A DNA stretch of 37,376 nucleotides, taken from positions 1-37,376 of the IMG/VR virus record IMGVR_UViG_3300020473_000065. One strand, given 5' to 3'. The notes under the pieces were generated by a model. It saw only the letters and a list, made by a program, of their open reading frames with translations. It did not search any database and was not told the origin of the DNA. This stretch comes from a virus. The translations under genes and the position numbers were made by a program. Shown in pieces: positions 10,701-30,446 of this stretch. Each line of letters begins with the position of its first letter. The stretch's first letter is position 1.

Positions 10701-11132
10701 CAATATAGAAGTTTTCCGATGGCAGCAATGCTTAGGCAAACAATACCTTTGGCTCAAAATATGAATAGAAACGCTTTGTCTGGTCTTTTGATTTCTGTTG
10801 TAACTGGAATGGCTGCTCGTCAATATATTAATTTTGCAAACGACAAAGATGGACCGGACGATCTTGACGAATTGCTTTATCAAGGATTAGAGGATACGGG
10901 AACTCTGTCTACAATTGGCGAGTTCGCAAATTACGGACAAATGATTTACAATAGAAATCCATTCTTTTTAGGGCCTACAGTAACTGGTGCTGGGGATATG
11001 TATAAAGTAGGATCTAGTTTGATTTCTGGTGAAGAAATGAACCAGTATGAAATCAACGCAGCCAGCAGGCTTGTTCCTTATGATGGGCTCAAGAAGTTGG
11101 TAACGGCCATAGTGCCAGAAATCGGAGAATAA
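7782..11132 (+). CDS. Second large internal virion protein with helix-hairpin-helix segment
   Basis: This 1116-aa protein follows the 1477-aa one. ATG 7782 (MSIKTINGTK) after GGAAG is preferred to the TTG at 7752. Residues about 140-230 hold Ala/Gly-rich hydrophobic stretches suited to membrane insertion. Residues about 270-330 contain 'ILEATKSIPGVGKKTAQLIV' followed by a second helical repeat, which resembles the ComEA-type helix-hairpin-helix DNA-binding fold. Near residue 980, 'FVSMMMQYRSFPMAAMLRQT' resembles a segment common in the C-terminal part of large podovirus ejection proteins. The ejection role is inferred from family context; the HhH reading is from sequence. Confidence 0.7.
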   Translation: MSIKTINGTKPNINPDYIAPATDNFWDKLNAAAAFTVGGSVINNIAPNDYQIQNVDYVLSNLPDREQDENFFDDRWNRKKRGLIADIIPSINEYRKQNDLEELNYKAYRYLTDSDTVSEFEKRYNELDKLAFANRTMARNPASVLGLTVGLSMVEPWNLFAGPYALVGQATAGKAALRAGAATAAIAATEEAILYRNDPHRTPGMSLLNIGAAGVIGSTIGGIVGARKSNQKALIKDISARMKSIDDEQHVVLDVDNFYTGSSPDTINLNLASFEDILEATKSIPGVGKKTAQLIVKLRNSKPNKVFDSYADLLDDPDLTKAQKKQLEIALGHCTSPCRFHVNGMPYGGDEATIIGSYGLDKVAAITSPLARLLQSEFPEIRREAVSLLNTPFMLSDNLQGVATKKSLEEIIDGNRIHYTRLIDSLENNYFNYLNIKTAPNGSVRKHIAKTRAGRILRTPSNVVRNGLRGNFSKMGTPAGKMSFEEFKLAAVKHRTGAVVSLDKNVIAASKSIDDLFDSNADAVKKLMKSIYRGKEFTWIDSEPYTHRLWNKAVISSNKEGFISFLHEQLIKKYGSKEAVEEAIGDGMQHIDASIRRSVDKIVMSPEERIDLSNIFEPLKRGATHNRFWNFVDDSDLYNTDWAVHDIEAIANSYIMGPLADVSFYNTYKTLNPETVTLRIRKAAIDNARMRYRQEGIQLDDDVVLFEKHMESLDNSLSLLESMLKRVRGSYVDVWSPVPGGTIQGVLDNIKRYNNIRLGGAFGLRSAADVGRTVMFLGLKKAYGPLFESYIKRNRKAMMMYDQASAELAAINVGNEINSMSLVSAITNTNFNTPYSDKFTQLMSKANSSMFVFNGLVLWNQSMKRNAGIGVMNEIITSAKAATLGKLDSKKASNLAKLGLEREDLYEIAKEFKAHGASYRGVHLMNFENWNADSTIADKLARAVKKEVDTIIVTPGIGDTPLLMENSFVSMMMQYRSFPMAAMLRQTIPLAQNMNRNALSGLLISVVTGMAARQYINFANDKDGPDDLDELLYQGLEDTGTLSTIGEFANYGQMIYNRNPFFLGPTVTGAGDMYKVGSSLISGEEMNQYEINAASRLVPYDGLKKLVTAIVPEIGE

Positions 11133-21019: not shown

Positions 21020-21095
21020 TGGATGCTGGGGCGGGGATCGAACCCGCAACCTACAGGTTCAAAGCCTGTCGCTCTACCAATTGAGCTACCCAGCA
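21020..21095 (-). tRNA. tRNA-Gln (anticodon TTG)
   Basis: On the minus strand the acceptor TGCTGGG pairs with CCCAGCA. The D arm is GCTC/GAGC. The anticodon stem ACAGG/CCTGT has loop CTTTGAA, giving anticodon TTG (codon CAA). The T arm is GCGGG-TTCGATC-CCCGC and CCA is encoded. Discriminator base is T, which is unusual for Gln. One base separates it from the next tRNA. Confidence 0.9.
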
Positions 21096-21096
21096 G

Positions 21097-21173
21097 TGGC
21101 GCACTCGGCAGGACTCGAACCTGCGACCCGTTGCTTAGAAGGCAACCGCTCTATCCAACTGAGCTACGAGTGC
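21097..21173 (-). tRNA. tRNA-Arg (anticodon TCT)
   Basis: The acceptor is GCACTCG/CGAGTGC, the D stem GCTC/GAGC, the anticodon stem GTTGC/GCAAC with loop CTTCTAA, so anticodon TCT (codon AGA). The T arm is GCAGG-TTCGAGT-CCTGC, and GCCA ends the gene. AGA is the dominant Arg codon of the virion genes here. Confidence 0.93.
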
Positions 21174-21178
21174 GTAAA

Positions 21179-21254
21179 TGGTGAACCCCCTCGGAATCGA
21201 ACCGAGAACCCACGGGTTAAAAGCCCGTTGCTCTACCAATTGAGCTAGGGGTCC
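21179..21254 (-). tRNA. tRNA-Lys (anticodon TTT)
   Basis: The acceptor GGACCCC pairs with GGGGTTC (one G-U). The anticodon stem ACGGG/CCCGT has loop CTTTTAA, giving TTT (codon AAA). The T arm is CTCGG-TTCGATT-CCGAG and the ACCA end is encoded. It is the first tRNA of the three-gene group in transcription order. Confidence 0.93.
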
Positions 21255-21263
21255 AGTGAGAAG

Positions 21264-21350
21264 GAGAGGAACACCCCCTCCCTCTCTGAACCGTAGACAT
21301 AAGGTTGGATAAAACTCCCCAGTACCACCCAGCCTTATTTCTGTCTACGG
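21264..21350 (-). repeat. Hairpins between XRE gene and tRNA-Lys
   Basis: This gap has no gene. On the minus transcript CCGTAGACA (21342-21350) pairs with TGTCTACGG (21291-21299), and TAAGG/CCTTA inside extends it (21333-21337 with 21300-21304). A second short stem GAGAGG/CCTCTC follows. No U-run follows either, so a processing or stability element before the tRNAs is more likely than a terminator. Confidence 0.6.
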
Positions 21351-21358
21351 AACTTTTG

Positions 21359-21616
21359 TCAATGTATGTCGAGCGCGACACCACGTTCAGCAAACTCTTC
21401 AATTAAGTATTGAAGAGTTGTTCGCTGAGGCTTTGTGATGCCACGCTCGACGTTCCTGATCGTGACATGGGATACGCCGATAGCATCCGCAAGCTGCTGT
21501 CTCGTGAGGCCGCATTGCTCTCGGGCATCCTGAATGATTTTACCACGAACAGAGATCGAACCTGTGCCCATACAAAATGGGCACAGTGTTCGTTCTTCAG
21601 TACCGGAAATGGACAT
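21359..21616 (-). CDS. XRE-family regulator with N-terminal CxxC
   Basis: This 85-aa protein has residues 12-18 'CPFCMGT' (one half of a zinc-knuckle pattern) and then a clear XRE helix-turn-helix: 'IIQDAREQCGLTRQQLADAI' followed by 'GVSHVTIRNVERGITKPQRT'. The likely role is a DNA-binding regulator of early or tRNA-region transcription. It lies between two tRNA groups on the same strand, which is unusual packing. The Shine-Dalgarno (AGGTAGGG) is far, about 14 bases upstream, so the start is moderately certain. Confidence 0.7.
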   Translation of the reverse strand: MSISGTEERTLCPFCMGTGSISVRGKIIQDAREQCGLTRQQLADAIGVSHVTIRNVERGITKPQRTTLQYLIEEFAERGVALDIH

Positions 21617-21637
21617 AAAAAAGTTGCCCTACCTGTA

Positions 21638-21714
21638 TGGTTGGCCTACCGGGACTTGAACCCGGAACCGCACGCTTATAAGACGTGTGCTCTAACCAGT
21701 TGAGCTATAGGCCA
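21638..21714 (-). tRNA. tRNA-Ile (anticodon TAT)
   Basis: The acceptor is TGGCCTA/TAGGCCA, the D stem GCTC/GAGC, the anticodon stem CACGT/GCGTG (last pair T-G) with loop CTTATAA, so anticodon TAT (codon AUA). The T arm is CCGGG-TTCAAGT-CCCGG and ACCA is encoded. A direct AUA reader avoids the host's need for lysidine-modified CAT tRNA. Confidence 0.85.
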
Positions 21715-21715
21715 G

Positions 21716-21791
21716 TGGTAGGGATGGTGGGAGTCGAACCCACACTGGAGGGATTTTAAGTCCCCTGCCTCTGCCGTTGGGCTACATCCCC
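21716..21791 (-). tRNA. tRNA with anticodon TAA (Leu), short variable loop
   Basis: The acceptor GGGGATG pairs with CATCCCT. The anticodon stem GGGGA/TCCCT has loop CTTAAAA, so anticodon TAA (codon UUA). The T arm is GTGGG-TTCGACT-CCCAC and ACCA is encoded. The variable loop is only about 5 bases (CCAGT), while bacterial tRNA-Leu normally has a long variable arm. One base separates it from tRNA-Ile. A Lys-rich ORF ends inside its 5' half. Confidence 0.82.
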
Positions 21792-23390: not shown

Positions 23391-24458
23391 TTACGACAGA
23401 ACCTTAACTCGCTTGGCGAGCTTCTTGTACGCAAGGCTCTTCTTGGCAGCACCGTCACCCATCCAGCTATTACGGACGGCCTTGGCAGCTCGCTTACCCT
23501 TCTCAACCTGATCACGAACGTGATTGAGGTCGAAGTGGTCGAAGTATTCCGTAAACGCCTGAAGTGCGTCGTATGAGGAATTACCTTCGTTTCCGTAACC
23601 ACTGTGGAAGAGGTCAGTGACCTTTGCGACCTTATTGGTCATAATGACCTTGCTGCGCTGAGGTGCATTTTCGTAAAAGAACTTGACTTCTTCCTTGATC
23701 TTGGTCTTTGGCCCGTCGAGGTTCAAAAAGACCTCAAGAGCAAAGTCCATGAACTCGTCCTGAGTCATGCTGTTCTGAGCGAACTCCTGAAGAATTCGAC
23801 GACGCTCGTCACTTTCTCCACGCATGACATCAATTGCAGTTGCTGCAAGCTCAAGCTTCTCAAGAACAGCACCCTTGTGAGGAATGCGGAACATGAGGTT
23901 TTCTCGCTTGGCAATGTCTTCTGCGAAGCCAACCGTGTTTGCACACTCTGCGCGAACGTCAGTAGGCATCATGTTGATCGAAGACTTGCCGTCGTGACCA
24001 ATAGCAACAAGCAGAAATGCATGGTGCGTATTGTTAGCGCCAGACTTGCGACTGATCTGCCAAGAGTCTGGAGTCTGTGCAAGAATCCAGACTCGTCTCC
24101 CCTCCTCCAGAGAACCAGCAGTGTGATAAAGCAAGTCACCATTAGTGACTAGGTTATCAAGGAAAGTAAAAGCTTCGCGATTCTGAAAGAGTTCATAAGC
24201 ATCAGTACAGCGACCAAGTACAGAATTATCGCTTGTCCGAATAAGGAACTTTTCATTATCGGCTTCCTGATACTCATCAGAAACCTTGTAATAAGCGGGC
24301 GTCTTGGCGACTTCCCAATCAAGTCCAGCAGCAGCAATTGCTTCTGCGGAAGTGACTGCGCCTTCGCCCAAATCAACGCCTACTGCGTTTCCCTGTGCTG
24401 AGTTGCCATACCACCAAGGCTTCTTACCAGTGAACATCATCTTTTCTACAGCGTGCAT
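23391..24458 (-). CDS. DUF932 phage/plasmid-like protein
   Basis: This 355-aa protein starts at ATG 24458 (MHAVEKMMFTGKKPWWYGNS) after AGGAG. The pattern 'TPAYYKVSDEYQEADNEKFL', 'RTSDNSVLGRCTDAYELFQN', 'ALEEGRRVWILAQ'-type (here SLEEGRRVWILAQTPDSW) and 'VRAECANTVGFAE' is that of DUF932/TIGR03299 proteins found on phages and plasmids. Their biochemical role is not established; an early DNA-linked function is usually supposed. It is the largest gene of the leftward early operon and is GC-richer than the small genes upstream. Confidence 0.75.
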   Translation of the reverse strand: MHAVEKMMFTGKKPWWYGNSAQGNAVGVDLGEGAVTSAEAIAAAGLDWEVAKTPAYYKVSDEYQEADNEKFLIRTSDNSVLGRCTDAYELFQNREAFTFLDNLVTNGDLLYHTAGSLEEGRRVWILAQTPDSWQISRKSGANNTHHAFLLVAIGHDGKSSINMMPTDVRAECANTVGFAEDIAKRENLMFRIPHKGAVLEKLELAATAIDVMRGESDERRRILQEFAQNSMTQDEFMDFALEVFLNLDGPKTKIKEEVKFFYENAPQRSKVIMTNKVAKVTDLFHSGYGNEGNSSYDALQAFTEYFDHFDLNHVRDQVEKGKRAAKAVRNSWMGDGAAKKSLAYKKLAKRVKVLS

Positions 24459-25413: not shown

Positions 25414-25559
25414 CCAGAGTTAGGATGTTCCTACATCCGTGTTTAGTGGTCGAGCGGCGTTACGCTCGTCCGAAGAGTGCGTCAGCGGCGATACGCGGTC
25501 CTCGCGAAGCGAAATATCTAAGAGAACGCTCATATCCTTGAGTGTGCTTTCACCCGCGC
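25414..25559 (+). ncRNA. Structured module related to the 1-kb RNA
   Basis: No gene. On the plus strand there are three hairpins: GGATGT-TCCT-ACATCC (25423-25438), CGAGCG-GCGTTA-CGCTCG (25451-25468) and CGCG-GTCCT-CGCG (25494-25506). The second, with flanks TTTAGTGGT and AAGAGTGCGT, matches 27556-27592 in the large RNA, with the stem changed to GCAGCG/CGCTGC. Either a second RNA of the same type or a duplicated domain. Strand is inferred from the shared orientation. Confidence 0.5.
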
Positions 25560-26139: not shown

Positions 26140-26688
26140 TTATCGCGAGAACGTGTGGGAGTCGGACTCCCAAGTTTCGGTCACGGTACCTTCCGTGACG
26201 TGTTCAACCGTGTGGCTTCGGACAATGCGGGACTTCCGCGTCTGCCTCCAAAGCACCTTCTCATGCTCGATGATCGGATCATCCCCGAAATCGAGCCAGT
26301 CCCGATATGGGTCTTGGCTACTCGCGTCGTCGAGCCCGTAAGGCCCGAGTGCGTCCGTCTCGCTGGCTTGGTCGGGTCCAAGCAACTCACTCGCCTGATG
26401 CTCGACGCATCGGAGCGCGAGAGGGCCTGCTGCGAAGCTCGGACAGCCCCAGACGATGCACATCCCCTGCGAATGACGCTTGGAGGCGGAATCGTCTGCG
26501 AGGTGTTCTGCAATGAGCAGCAAGTAGCTCTCAAATTCCGTGACTGAAAGGACTCCTTTCTTTGCGGCGCCTAGCTGATCTGCTCGTCTACAGAGCCAGT
26601 CTGAGTAGCTAGGCTGTCGGGGCTTCTGATGATGAGCTTCCGTAAGCTCGCCATCCCGAGGCCATGAACTGCGAATCGAATCTTGCAT
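26140..26688 (-). CDS. Hypothetical protein with Cys/His cluster
   Basis: This 182-aa protein starts at ATG 26688 (MQDSIRSSWPRDGELTEAHH) after a strong GGGAGG. The frame upstream to 26919 crosses a hairpin and reads unnaturally, so it is left out. A 'MCIVWGCPSFAAGPLALRCV' segment followed by EHQ gives C-x4-C and CxxH, a possible zinc site. The rest is acidic with many Asp and Ser. GC-rich codons. No family is recognised. Confidence 0.55.
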   Translation of the reverse strand: MQDSIRSSWPRDGELTEAHHQKPRQPSYSDWLCRRADQLGAAKKGVLSVTEFESYLLLIAEHLADDSASKRHSQGMCIVWGCPSFAAGPLALRCVEHQASELLGPDQASETDALGPYGLDDASSQDPYRDWLDFGDDPIIEHEKVLWRQTRKSRIVRSHTVEHVTEGTVTETWESDSHTFSR

Positions 26689-26705
26689 CTCATTCCCTCC
26701 CTTGC

Positions 26706-26757
26706 TGGCGTCCCCTGCGCCGCCCCGAGCTTGCGAGGCGGCGGCAGGGGGTGCCGG
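26706..26757 (-). repeat. Intergenic GC hairpin
   Basis: CCCCTGC/GCAGGGG and GCCGCC/GGCGGC, with a 12-base loop, extend outward to GGC/GCC through G-T contacts. It lies between the stop of the 68-aa gene (26762) and the Shine-Dalgarno of the 182-aa gene. No T-run, so not a classic terminator. Confidence 0.65.
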
Positions 26758-26761
26758 ATAA

Positions 26762-26968
26762 CTAAATAAGTTTCTTGAGCGCCTCATACGTCTCTTCGGC
26801 GACCATGAGGCGTCCGTCTGCCTCTTCGACGTATGGAAGCTCCCAGTAGCTTTCGGAGTCGCCTTCGAGGTAGGTACCACTTTCGTAAAACATGTCGGAA
26901 TACCGCTCAACCTCGGCATTCGCCTGATGAAGCTCGCGCTTCCAAATTTGAATCAATCCGTCGATCAT
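26762..26968 (-). CDS. First small gene of the leftward early operon
   Basis: This 68-aa acidic helical protein starts at ATG 26968 (MIDGLIQIWKRELHQANAEV) with AGGAG 6 bases upstream; the ATG at 26974 is an alternative. Many aromatic and acidic residues (SESYWELPYVEEADGR). It is the promoter-proximal gene of the leftward transcript and diverges from the large RNA. Small, acidic first-expressed phage proteins often bind host factors; this is only a guess. Confidence 0.5.
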   Translation of the reverse strand: MIDGLIQIWKRELHQANAEVERYSDMFYESGTYLEGDSESYWELPYVEEADGRLMVAEETYEALKKLI

Positions 26969-27039
26969 GCTCATCTCCTATTCTTGCGCCCGCCCTGCCC
27001 TCTGCACGACGGGAACCCACGTGTAGCGCGGGCCGGAGG

Positions 27040-28068
27040 TTTTGTGGCTGGAGGGAAAGTTCTCGCAGCGATCTGACCCTATCCTGGGGCGCCCGTCCAC
27101 GTCCTCGTGGACAAAAGTGGGCGCGAAAATTGTCCTCAATTTTCTCAGTCGCGAGGACAGTTTCACGGAGGCCACAAAATTGCTCTTACCCGCATGGCTT
27201 TGCCTTCGATTGAACTGTGCAAATCTCCCAGCGGGGAAGGCAACCTGCGCTATCGTTGGTGATCCCGTTGTGTGTGGTAATATCCTCCCGAGTCTGGCGA
27301 ACGGCGAGTCCGCGAGCCAAGGAGCGTCAGGCAGTACCGGATGAGCGATCCAGAGCTTCGGAAGTGCCGTCGTTAGCTAAAGAAAAATCCAGCACGGCAA
27401 ACGATCAACCCCGCTTCCCGCCAGGTTTGTCTCTGGGTGAGTCCTCGGCGTAGATTTTTCGCGGTGTCCATGCCCAGCCATGTCCTCATGGATGAAGAGG
27501 GCATGGACGTGAACTGGATTGCATGAATGAGGCGCGATGTGCCCTCGCATCGCTTTTAGTGGTGCAGCGGCGTTACGCTGCCACAAGGTGCGTACTGCGT
27601 CAGCGATCGAAGCCCGAAGGGTCAAGACTCGATTCCTCCGAGGCTTGATTCACGAGAGCGCGGTCCGCGTTCCTACGCGGAGACGCCCAACAACGCCTAC
27701 GGCAGATGTGTTACCCCAAGCTAACGGAAGAGGCAGTCAGTCCCGTGATGGGACAGCAAGGCTATGGAACCAAGCAATGCCAATGAGTTAGCGTGAATCC
27801 CTGCGGGGACGTCAGGCTATAGCTAGATGTTACGAATACAGTCAACATGGTGGACGAAGGCGAACGTGGACAGAAAGAGCTGTTGTGACGCACAGCAACG
27901 TGCGTGCGTATGCGTTGGCATGAGCCACTGGAACAGCTAGATCACCGTAGCGGTCAACGAGCTGCGTCGTTAACGAGGAGTGCAAGGCACTGTTTGTCAC
28001 TGTAAAGTCGCGGCTTCGCCGCGCTGGTGGAATTGCTAGGGGGGTGGCCCCCCGCTTCGCAATTTTTT
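27040..28068 (+). ncRNA. Giant structured noncoding RNA (about 1 kb), GOLLD/ROOL-like in kind
   Basis: No plausible gene occurs between 26985 and 28109; frames present read as low-quality shadows. Plus-strand helices visible: TTTTGTGGC/GCCACAAAA (27040-27048 with 27171-27179) closing GTTCTCGC/GCGAGGAC (27059-27066 with 27151-27158, G-U valid only on the plus strand) around two UCCU-loop hairpins; TTGCCTTC/GAAGGCAA (27200-27207 with 27236-27243); TGCCGT/ACGGCA (27365-27370 with 27394-27399), pseudoknotted with GAAAAATC/GATTTTTC (27382-27389 with 27453-27460); a 10-bp stem 27466-27475 with 27499-27508; hairpins at 27564-27581, 27622-27648 and 27664-27681; CGCGGC/GCCGCG at 28009-28023. It ends in a rightward terminator. 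Size, phage setting and density of helices recall GOLLD and ROOL RNAs; a homology test was not possible. A weak promoter (TTGGTG, TAATAT near 27255-27284) would cut off the 5' domain, so the true start is probably upstream of 27040. Confidence 0.75.
28031..28068 (+). terminator. Rightward intrinsic terminator of the large RNA
   Basis: AATTGC (28031-28036) and GGGGGG (28039-28044) pair with CCCCCC (28048-28053) and GCAATT (28059-28064), then TTTT (28065-28068). T-run only in the rightward direction. Confidence 0.9.
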
Positions 28069-28109
28069 AAAGTAACAAAATCTCGATTCTCAGTCTGGCA
28101 TCATTTTTA

Positions 28110-28427
28110 TCAATTAGAATCGAAGTGCGATCTGATGTGTTCAGGCAACTGATCTAGCGCTTTCTTACGCTGGCGCTCTTTATCGAAGTCCTTTGTAGCT
28201 TTGATTCGATCAGCTCTACGTTTTGCAGATTTACGAGATTGAAAAATATGCTGTAAGCCACGAAGAGTAACTGGCATGATTGATGGGATTCTGGATCTGC
28301 CCGTTTCCCAACGCCATATCGTTATACGACTGACACCTAGTTCTTTGCCCAATGCCTTTTGGCTAAGGCTGTGCTTTTCTCTGAACGAGATAAGGTCACT
28401 CGGAATTGAACGAATTTTAGTTGACAA
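28110..28427 (-). CDS. XRE-family repressor-like protein
   Basis: This 105-aa protein starts at TTG 28427. Residues 10-45 carry a clear XRE helix-turn-helix: 'LISFREKHSLSQKALGKELG' and 'VSRITIWRWETGRSRIPSI'. The rest is very basic (SRKSAKRRADRIKATKDFDK). Its start overlaps the -35 box of the divergent terminase promoter, so it may repress late transcription and itself. Direct repeats AACGTAA downstream of that promoter are candidate operators. Confidence 0.75.
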   Translation of the reverse strand: MSTKIRSIPSDLISFREKHSLSQKALGKELGVSRITIWRWETGRSRIPSIMPVTLRGLQHIFQSRKSAKRRADRIKATKDFDKERQRKKALDQLPEHIRSHFDSN

Positions 28428-28480
28428 AGCCTTCTAAAAGCTCTTAAAATGTTAAGGGACGCAACGTAAAGTTAACGTAA
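28421..28480 (+). promoter_or_regulatory. Late promoter with possible operators
   Basis: TTGACA (28421-28426), an 18-base spacer and TAAAAT (28445-28450) form a strong sigma70-type promoter heading to the terminase genes. Two AACGTAA repeats (28463-28469 and 28474-28480), 11 bases apart (one helical turn), lie just downstream and could bind the adjacent XRE protein. Confidence 0.7.
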
Positions 28481-28567: not shown

Positions 28568-29176
28568 GTGAACTTCTTGATAGACGAGATCCTAGAAGAG
28601 TACGAGTGCCTGACGGATCAGGAGAAGCTGGGACGCCCTTTAGACAACATGCGGCACGAGATCTTCTCTGTCCACGTTGCTACGGGGCGGAGTCTTCAGG
28701 ATTCTTACCGGGCTGCGTTTGGAATCCCCGAAGGTGGCGCTGTCGGCAGTCGGCCTGGGGCTCTCGTCAAGAAGCAGGACATAAGGGTAAGGATCGGACA
28801 CCTCGCCACCCAGCGGGCGGAAATGGTGATCAACCGCTCCCTGCTGACCGAGAAGAACATCCTAGACGAGTACGCTTGGGGCGTCCGAAATGCCCGTGAC
28901 CAACTGAGGTTCAAGGAACACAAAGGATACTTAGATAGCCTTTCAAAGATCTTTGGCTTATTTTCGGAATCTGACTCTAAGAACGAGATGGCAAACAAGT
29001 CCATCGAAGAGCTTCGGCAAGAAGTAAAGATGTTGGAGGAAGAGTTTGGATCAGTCGGAGGAATACAAGAATCTCCAGCGCAAGGCCCAGATTTTGCGCG
29101 AGATGTCACGCCGGAAACTGGAGAATTACCAGCCGTACTTGAAGCAGATGGAGTTCCACAAGACCGGAAGCACTAA
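28568..29176 (+). CDS. terS: Terminase small subunit
   Basis: This 202-aa protein lies directly before the large terminase, with a typical helix-turn-helix-like N-terminal half (LDNMRHEIFSVHVATGRSLQ, DSYRAAFGIPEGGAVGSRPG) resembling TerS proteins. Residues 115-155 are coiled coil (NEMANKSIEELRQEVKMLEE). Role: binds the genome's packaging site and loads the motor. GTG 28568 lacks a clear ribosome site; TTG 28577 is possible. Its last 43 codons overlap terL by 131 bases and look like out-of-frame reading. Confidence 0.7.
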   Translation: MNFLIDEILEEYECLTDQEKLGRPLDNMRHEIFSVHVATGRSLQDSYRAAFGIPEGGAVGSRPGALVKKQDIRVRIGHLATQRAEMVINRSLLTEKNILDEYAWGVRNARDQLRFKEHKGYLDSLSKIFGLFSESDSKNEMANKSIEELRQEVKMLEEEFGSVGGIQESPAQGPDFARDVTPETGELPAVLEADGVPQDRKH

Positions 29177-30446
29177 CCGTGAACGGTGCTTCATGGCAGG
29201 AAACCAGCTAGGCAAGACTCTCTCCGGCGGCATGGAAATGGCGATGCACCTGACCGGGAACTACCCCGATTGGTGGCAAGGCCGTAGATTCGAGCACCCG
29301 ATCCGCGCGTGGGCAGCAGGGAACTCCTCCGAGACGACTCGGGATAACCCTCAGCGCGTACTGCTCGGAGACGCCCCCGAAGTATGGGGAACCGGCTCCC
29401 TCCCAGCCTCCTCCATTGTCGAAGTGAAGCGTGCTAAAGGCGTCAGTGACGCGGCGGATATTATCTCTGTCCGGCACTCCACCGGAGGCATCTCGACCCT
29501 CAAGTTCAAAACCTATGATCAGGGTCGGGAAAAATGGCAGGGCGTTCCTGTCCATGTCGTGTGGTTCGATGAGGAGCCGCCTGCGGACGTTTACTCCGAG
29601 GGCGTGACCCGTACTAACGCGACCCAAGGAATCGCTTATATCACGGCTACGCCGCTGATGGGCATGACGCATGTGGTTCGCCTTTTTTACCCGGAACCCG
29701 TGGACGAGGCCAAAAGCCTCGTCACGATGACAATCCACGATGCAGGACATTACACACAGGCACAAATCGACGAAATTATTGCTAAAACCCCTCCCCATGA
29801 AGTTGAAGCTCGTACCCAAGGCAAGCCTATGCTTGGCGAGGGGCTCATCTTCCCCGTTCCTCATTCAGAAATTATGGTCGATCCCTTTGAGATTCCGACG
29901 CATTGGGCTCGCATTATTGGAATGGATTTTGGATGGGACCACCCTACTGCTGGTGCTCTTTGTGCTTGGGATAGGGATTCTGACTGTTTTTATGTTACTG
30001 CCACTTATAAGCAGCGTAGAGAAGTTATCGCGATCCATGCAGCAGCAATAAACGGTTGGGGAAAGTATCCAGTCGCTTGGCCGCATGATGGATACAAGCA
30101 TGACCAAACTTCAGGCGAGCAGATCGCAATGCTGTACCGAAACCACGGACTAAGAATGCTGCCTGAACACGCAACAAACGTTTCTGGCGGGATAGGCACT
30201 GAAGCGCCCGTCCAAGAAATGCTTGAAGCAATGATTACTGGAAAGTTTAAAATCTTTTCTCATTGCCAAGCTTTGCTTGATGAACTTGGGCAGTACCACA
30301 GAAAAGCAGGCAAAATTGTGAAAATCTACGATGATGTTATATCATCGGTTAGATACGCTTGGATGATGAGGCGTTTTGCCAATACTTCTTCTAAGAAGAT
30401 CATGCCTACAGAAACAGGCATTGATTACAACCCGCTTTACCACTGA
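29046..30446 (+). CDS. terL: Terminase large subunit
   Basis: This 466-aa protein starts at TTG 29046, 5 bases after a strong GGAGG, and overlaps terS. Walker A is 'FMAGNQLGKTLS' (51-60), Walker B with catalytic Glu 'VVWFDEEPP' (173-177), and coupling 'AYITATPLMG' (197-206). The RNase H-type nuclease begins at 'IIGMDFGWDHP' (Asp294) with a late 'DDVISSVRYA'. It is the packaging ATPase and nuclease. GC-rich 5' half, AT-richer 3' half. Confidence 0.92.
   Translation: MDQSEEYKNLQRKAQILREMSRRKLENYQPYLKQMEFHKTGSTNRERCFMAGNQLGKTLSGGMEMAMHLTGNYPDWWQGRRFEHPIRAWAAGNSSETTRDNPQRVLLGDAPEVWGTGSLPASSIVEVKRAKGVSDAADIISVRHSTGGISTLKFKTYDQGREKWQGVPVHVVWFDEEPPADVYSEGVTRTNATQGIAYITATPLMGMTHVVRLFYPEPVDEAKSLVTMTIHDAGHYTQAQIDEIIAKTPPHEVEARTQGKPMLGEGLIFPVPHSEIMVDPFEIPTHWARIIGMDFGWDHPTAGALCAWDRDSDCFYVTATYKQRREVIAIHAAAINGWGKYPVAWPHDGYKHDQTSGEQIAMLYRNHGLRMLPEHATNVSGGIGTEAPVQEMLEAMITGKFKIFSHCQALLDELGQYHRKAGKIVKIYDDVISSVRYAWMMRRFANTSSKKIMPTETGIDYNPLYH

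Follow-up and report, generated by a model that had tools for sequence, protein, structure and literature searches.

The gene-free block of the phage DNA analysed here contains a five-helix element, which we call E, that also occurs in plasmids, single-stranded DNA microviruses and other phages and that likely acts as single-stranded DNA. The window, meaning the whole stretch analysed, is a 37,376-base IMG/VR virus record that encodes terminase and tail genes, and its nearest isolate terminases are those of Rhizobium phages (52% identity). With moderate confidence we interpret the block as a divergent control region, possibly an origin region, of a tailed dsDNA phage, in which E would be a single-strand DNA start element of the Frpo/ssi/CUP type. 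The first-pass annotation had proposed one giant multi-helix RNA and likened it to GOLLD and ROOL; it is supported as regards a gene-free, heavily structured, plus-strand block with covarying elements, but not as regards one giant RNA of that kind.

The gene-free block and its relatives

Reading directions diverge, being leftward from 26974 and rightward from 28568, and at the block the GC skew flips sign. Between the 70-aa gene at 26762-26974 (minus strand) and the HTH gene at 28110-28427 (minus strand) no credible ORF is present, which agrees with the first-pass annotation; overlapping ORFs are short and mutually conflicting, and a protein-coding reading of the block was rejected. The neighbouring genes 26762-26974 and 26140-26919 matched none of the families tested. 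The features of the block and its surroundings are:

23391-24458, minus strand: DUF932 gene of the leftward operon (Pfam match), downstream of E and pointing away from it
26975-28109, plus strand: structured gene-free block, separating the leftward operon from the HTH/terminase genes at a divergent junction with a GC-skew sign switch
27005-27272, plus strand: clade-specific 5' domain closed by CACGACGGGA / TCCCGTTGTG, with a counterpart helix at 3523-3542/3900-3919 of L009 and, by eye, in G001
27040-27179, plus strand: helix TTTTGTGGC / GCCACAAAA, shared with G001 only
27095-27144, plus strand: two hairpins kept in G001 and L009; in the first, a GAA triloop replaces the TCCT loop
27466-27508, plus strand: bulged hairpin, the same design being repeated three more times in L009
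28041-28064, plus strand: rightward terminator-like hairpin and T run
28110-28427, minus strand: HTH regulator gene flanking the block
28568-30446, plus strand: start of the rightward operon, with a putative small terminase (by position only, without family match) and then the large terminase

The block was also expected to be heavily structured in plus-strand orientation, and folding indeed beats shuffled sequences. For 26990-27690 the z-scores (20 shuffles each) are -4.3 for the plus and -3.3 for the minus strand folded as RNA, and -7.4 and -5.4, respectively, folded as DNA, whereas RNA folding of 27040-28039 and DNA folding of 27691-28070 each give -2.4. Most of the structure thus lies in 26990-27690, with the plus strand folding better than the minus. 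The 9-bp helix that the first-pass annotation took to close the RNA is present (27040-27048 / 27171-27179). Inverted repeats of at least nine Watson-Crick pairs number 12, against 5.5 in shuffled sequences, and about half of them are thus at chance level. The predicted terminator has its hairpin and T run at 28041-28064, but a rightward promoter-like site was found neither inside nor just before the block. The promoter scan, which used a plain linear consensus only, picked up a weak leftward candidate at 28113-28086, with no site within the hairpins; a promoter-like TTGACA-18-TAAAAT lies at 28421-28450, ahead of the rightward operon. A G-rich/C-rich hairpin followed by CGATTCTCAGTCTGG (window 28041-28099; also L006, L009 and L092) is conserved in all relatives and lies on differing sides of the HTH gene; it could be a packaging or terminal signal.

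The comparison covers close relatives by terminase (83-90%). In G001, similarity to the block is confined to its first ~310 nt (88%) and some short pieces; a global MAFFT alignment of the window with G001 over-aligned unrelated middles, and homology is limited to those ~310 nt. G004 (L009) has a different gene-free block of 1.08 kb, with common hairpins and a closing helix of like layout, and L006 has ~690 gene-free nt without sequence similarity to the window block. As relatives share just the first ~310 nt or isolated hairpins, the block is a fast-evolving mosaic and not one conserved RNA. Pattern searches for the clade-specific part (TTGTGTGTGGT..GGCGAACG, GCTCCGTAGTC.TCGGAGGACG, CCATGTCYTCATGGAYRAA) found it in G001 and L009 only, and BLAST of this part against phages gave no match. 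The second hairpin of 27095-27144 reads GAAAATTG-TCCT-CAATTTTC versus TAAGTTG-TCCT-CAACTTA. Counted over the three blocks, the long helices contain 11 internal G-T mismatches and one A-C mismatch, which indicates the plus strand; this clade-specific remainder of the block may be RNA.

Two further repeats were observed. L009:3700-4250 holds three near-identical long hairpins (ATCCATG-TCTT-CATGGAT, A-rich bulge on the 3' side) plus one more of like design, each enclosed by an outer stem; the window holds one copy of this design, at 27466-27508. The block hairpin GCAGCG-GCGTTA-CGCTGC (27564-27581) has a second copy, 92% identical, at 25442-25466 in the leftward gene region; it is the same in G001, and the L009 version has a changed stem and the same loop.

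Rfam 15 gave only tRNAs over the window and nothing relevant within the block even at E=10. GOLLD (RF02032) had no match at the gathering cut-off, at E<=10 or in a dedicated search, and no covariance-model match was obtained for ROOL, OLE, HEARO or the other large RNAs of Rfam, for the four families named by the first-pass annotation even at E<=10. Readings as a group I or group II intron or as an N4-type promoter were set aside on the impression given by the sequence only; introns had no Rfam match. With the GOLLD and ROOL giant RNAs (PMC12286853) the block shares its phage setting, a size of ~1 kb and tRNA genes ~6 kb away; it differs from them in having no covariance-model match, in being a mosaic and in that its conserved module pairs in a DNA-like manner. 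Five phage tRNA genes (Gln, Arg, Lys, Ile, Leu) lie at 21020-21791 on the minus strand of the window, ~6 kb left of the block.

Structure, covariation and hosts of element E

Element E, the only part of the block with homologues beyond the closest relatives of the phage, was first found through a 55-nt BLAST match to the intergenic region of a marine microvirus. Covariance model R1, built from 25 sequences with the window copy among them, locates P2, P3, P4 and the conserved loops at 27602-27662 of the window (73.8 bits, E=1e-18). All parts of E lie on the plus strand:

27597-27686, plus strand: element E, autonomous, helices P1-P5 (model match, covariation, DNA fold z -3.3)
27597-27601, plus strand: P1 5' arm GCGTC, pairing with 27682-27686
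27603-27605, plus strand: P2 5' arm, pairing with 27659-27661
27613-27621, plus strand: hairpin P3, CCC-GAA-GGG, with a GNA triloop
27622-27648, plus strand: hairpin P4, TCAAG..CTTGA, with an A.G mismatch and an upper CTCG/CGAG stem
27664-27681, plus strand: hairpin P5, TCCGCGT-TCCT-ACGCGGA
27682-27686, plus strand: P1 3' arm GACGC, then CCA

The design is family-wide: P1 as GCGNN/NNCGC followed by CC, then P2, P3 with a GNA (or GNNA) loop, P4 with the A.G mismatch, and P5. The window copy has the P1 arms and the CC by which membership was judged, and, folded as DNA, it takes the same form as the F and gokushovirus copies. It is nearly certain that the window copy belongs to this family, a structured family absent from Rfam.

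Covariation inside the block, which the first-pass annotation had named as a check, is real for E. In alignment A1, 89.7% of cells are paired, against 78.7% when shuffled. Alignment A3 was fitted to the model and holds 86 distinct sequences, some of them collected by pattern. It contains 170 double-changed cells, against 49 +/- 5 in shuffled alignments, by statistics that ignore relatedness; slid controls collapse, and both sides have changed in 11 of the 14 pairs. P1, counted by script with the arms anchored on the conserved CC, occurs with nine distinct arm pairs and is Watson-Crick in 44 of 45 cells, which none of 10,000 shuffles reached.

E is present in ~80 different viral contigs (31, 11 and 69 contigs in the exact-pattern IMG/VR scans). 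R1 matches two microviruses, whose genomes measure 4-5 kb, as well as NAH7, pWW0, IncN plasmids, R46, R100 and F; besides plasmids and microviruses, the genomes bearing E are mostly dsDNA phages. Among culturable phages, Sphingopyxis phage VSN-002 has E. Such dsDNA phages are not known to pass through an obligatory single-stranded stage at the E site, which speaks against the single-strand reading. BLAST of an IncN copy against plasmids returned 4,709 records, of which 3,761 are conjugative, and a pattern scan of bacterial genomes placed E in Pseudomonas plasmids and alphaproteobacterial contigs. IncP-9 plasmids have two to six copies each. No E was found in ColIb-P9, a plasmid with ssi promoters. 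In the alphaproteobacterial phages L112, L114, L118, L105 and L144 (G008, G011-G014) there are 3-13 copies per genome on both strands, often overlapping gene starts, with the ORFs running on the other strand; a dispersed or cis-regulatory element would account for this as well. The overlapped ORF starts yield N-terminal peptides such as SDQAAPRLAPSGFDPSR, including that of a likely DNA methyltransferase.

Two outlying records were noted. The E region of a Streptomyces sp. IBSBF 2953 contig (L130) is identical to that of the Pseudomonas contig L131 and probably reflects contamination or mis-binning. PLSDB NZ_CP045120.1 (Rubrobacter tropicus), an actinobacterial plasmid far outside Pseudomonadota, has a 32-nt, 94% E match at 11066-11097.

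The flanking genes of viral E loci are divergent in 40 of 61 informative cases, with a median gap of 917 nt. The Pfam family DUF932 is common to the window gene and to leading-region genes of F and IncN plasmids, and the IncP-9 and R100 genes belong to it by annotation. Where the family was found at E loci, it lies left of E on the opposite strand at 1.2-4.2 kb in 9 of 11 cases, the window included. Since this is the geometry of F, the phage carries E together with a gene family of the leading-region type. No E was found in the closest relatives G001-G004, yet these keep the gene-free blocks or the junction, and E is therefore not essential for the junction.

Strand polarity and pairing of E

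The F plasmid has E on the minus strand at 58110-58167 and 63498-63555 (R1 E-values 1.4e-12 and 3e-10). Both copies sit within 559-bp repeats (89% identity), upstream of ssb and of the DUF932-containing operon (ygeAB). These regions upstream of ssb and ygeAB are Frpo2 and Frpo1, which are 92% identical to each other and drive early expression from the incoming single strand (PMC9849209). E may fall outside the 328-nt Frpo of the in vitro work. Firstly, E thus resembles Frpo1/Frpo2 (Masai and Arai 1997; PMC9849209) and ssi in lying inside both F repeats on the transferred strand. Secondly, the phage block is like them in that genes are transcribed away from E and a DUF932 gene lies downstream. 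It differs in belonging to a dsDNA tailed phage and in showing no recognisable promoter hairpin with -35/-10 boxes.

On R46 the E copies are located on the plus strand among ccg and ard genes, on the first-entering side of stbABC; ccg stands for CUP-controlled gene. The CUP elements of pKM101/R46 reportedly go back to Delver and Belogurov 1997. CUP is a regulatory repeat that binds ArdK (TrfB-type) (PMC6289460), and the stb side enters the recipient first (PMC3098194). The R46 copies of E, among CUP-controlled and ard genes and on the transferred strand, therefore recall the CUP elements of IncN pKM101/R46 (PMC6289460), but an ArdK homologue was not identified in the window. Our search of openly available literature yielded no paper that ties Frpo or CUP to phage or microvirus hosts.

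In six MOBF plasmids, 17 of 17 copies lie on the transferred strand (F 2/2, R100 2/2, R46 3/3, NAH7 3/3, pWW0 3/3, IncN-like 4/4), this strand being inferred from synteny and gene direction for pWW0 and R100. Both microvirus copies (2/2) are on the virion strand. In the plasmid and microvirus members the E region does pass through a single-stranded state, and reading of E on single-stranded DNA is the simplest feature that would unite them. One single-strand DNA device thus seems to be common to very different mobile elements. C(GNA)G triloops are an unusually stable DNA minihairpin motif. They favour the transferred strand in R46 (8:0), NAH7 (15:1) and an IncN plasmid (8:2), together 31:3, and are balanced in F (3:3); the count of 0:1 in the window block is too small to inform.

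The pairs themselves also point to DNA. Among 1,198 pair cells of A3, 1,090 are Watson-Crick, 6 are G-T and 5 are A-C. G-T wobble amounts to 0.5% in the E helices, whereas tRNAs from these loci reach 6.3% (Fisher p=5e-12). The E count depends mostly on P2 and on the pairs of P4 that vary, as the collection patterns fix part of P3/P4; variable pairs alone give 495 Watson-Crick, 4 G-T and 5 A-C. An RNA with 170 compensatory changes should pass through many G-U pairs, and the near absence of both G-T and A-C therefore fits strict DNA pairing. These comparisons of sequences are arguments, rather than proof, for E acting as folded DNA and not as RNA.

It is accordingly unlikely that the whole block is one large rightward structured non-coding RNA that ends at 28064 and has E as one of its domains. 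The better folding of the plus strand, the 11:1 excess of G-T over A-C mismatches in the long helices and the terminator agree with such a transcript, but it has neither an Rfam match nor a rightward promoter-like site, the block is a mosaic in relatives, E is almost without wobble, and a plus-type E RNA in plasmids would be antisense to the leading-region genes. Less probable still is a cis-regulatory RNA formed by the minus-strand copy in the 5' leaders of leftward mRNAs (plasmid leading operons, the phage early operon and gene starts of alphaproteobacterial phages). E is mostly antisense to, and just upstream of, the adjacent genes, and P3 would allow a C(UNCG)G RNA tetraloop on that strand; however, the mRNA-sense strand of both microviruses bears E and not its complement, and with G-T and A-C both nearly absent there is no sign of RNA on either strand. 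The least probable reading, a selfish dispersed element (cf. Rickettsia palindromic elements and MITEs of ssDNA transposons) of no service to the host genome, would suit the several copies per genome, the copies inside ORF ends that encode SDQAAPRLAPSGFDPSR-like peptides and the sporadic occurrence among close relatives, but is opposed by compensatory substitutions in variable helices, a strand fixed relative to transfer in six plasmids and persistence in microvirus genomes of 4-5 kb.

A proposed single-strand start element and its meaning

As a start element, E would operate as follows. The plus strand would be exposed as single-stranded DNA, either in replication intermediates or by supercoil-driven hairpin extrusion, as known for N4. 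Exposed E would then fold into its fixed five-helix DNA structure. This could mark the spot at which host machinery, be it RNA polymerase or primase with SSB, would begin synthesis of the complementary strand, early leftward transcription of the operon that includes the DUF932 gene, or both. Promoters of the phage N4 virion RNA polymerase are DNA hairpins that become active after extrusion. Shared with E are DNA hairpins with GNA triloops and, as proposed for E, action on a single strand of a dsDNA phage genome; E differs in being a multi-helix structure common to different hosts. The sequences themselves show family membership, structure, covariation, strand polarity, scarcity of wobble and gene geometry. 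For the window phage, we infer the action as single-stranded DNA, a host factor that reads E, and the output, be it priming or transcription. Because the nearest relatives have no E, E is multicopy on both strands in some phages and no -35/-10 hairpin was recognised, we grade the single-strand mode as likely only, below family membership.

A few plasmids are known to have single-stranded DNA promoters and priming sites, which have hitherto been searched for by BLAST in leading regions (PMC11541004). E provides a covarying structural definition that joins the Frpo elements of F and R100 with those of IncN and IncP-9 plasmids and adds microviruses and tailed phages to their hosts. With it, one can test which part of the start regions forms their common core, which host factor reads it and whether single-strand exposure is programmed in dsDNA phages. 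It also corrects the giant-RNA reading, and wobble avoidance can help to tell folded DNA from RNA in comparative data. Lastly, we propose tentatively that E unites plasmids, ssDNA microviruses and tailed phages and that tailed phages use it as a strand-specific start of priming or early transcription. If this is true, the early control region of at least some dsDNA phages would pass through a functional single-stranded stage.
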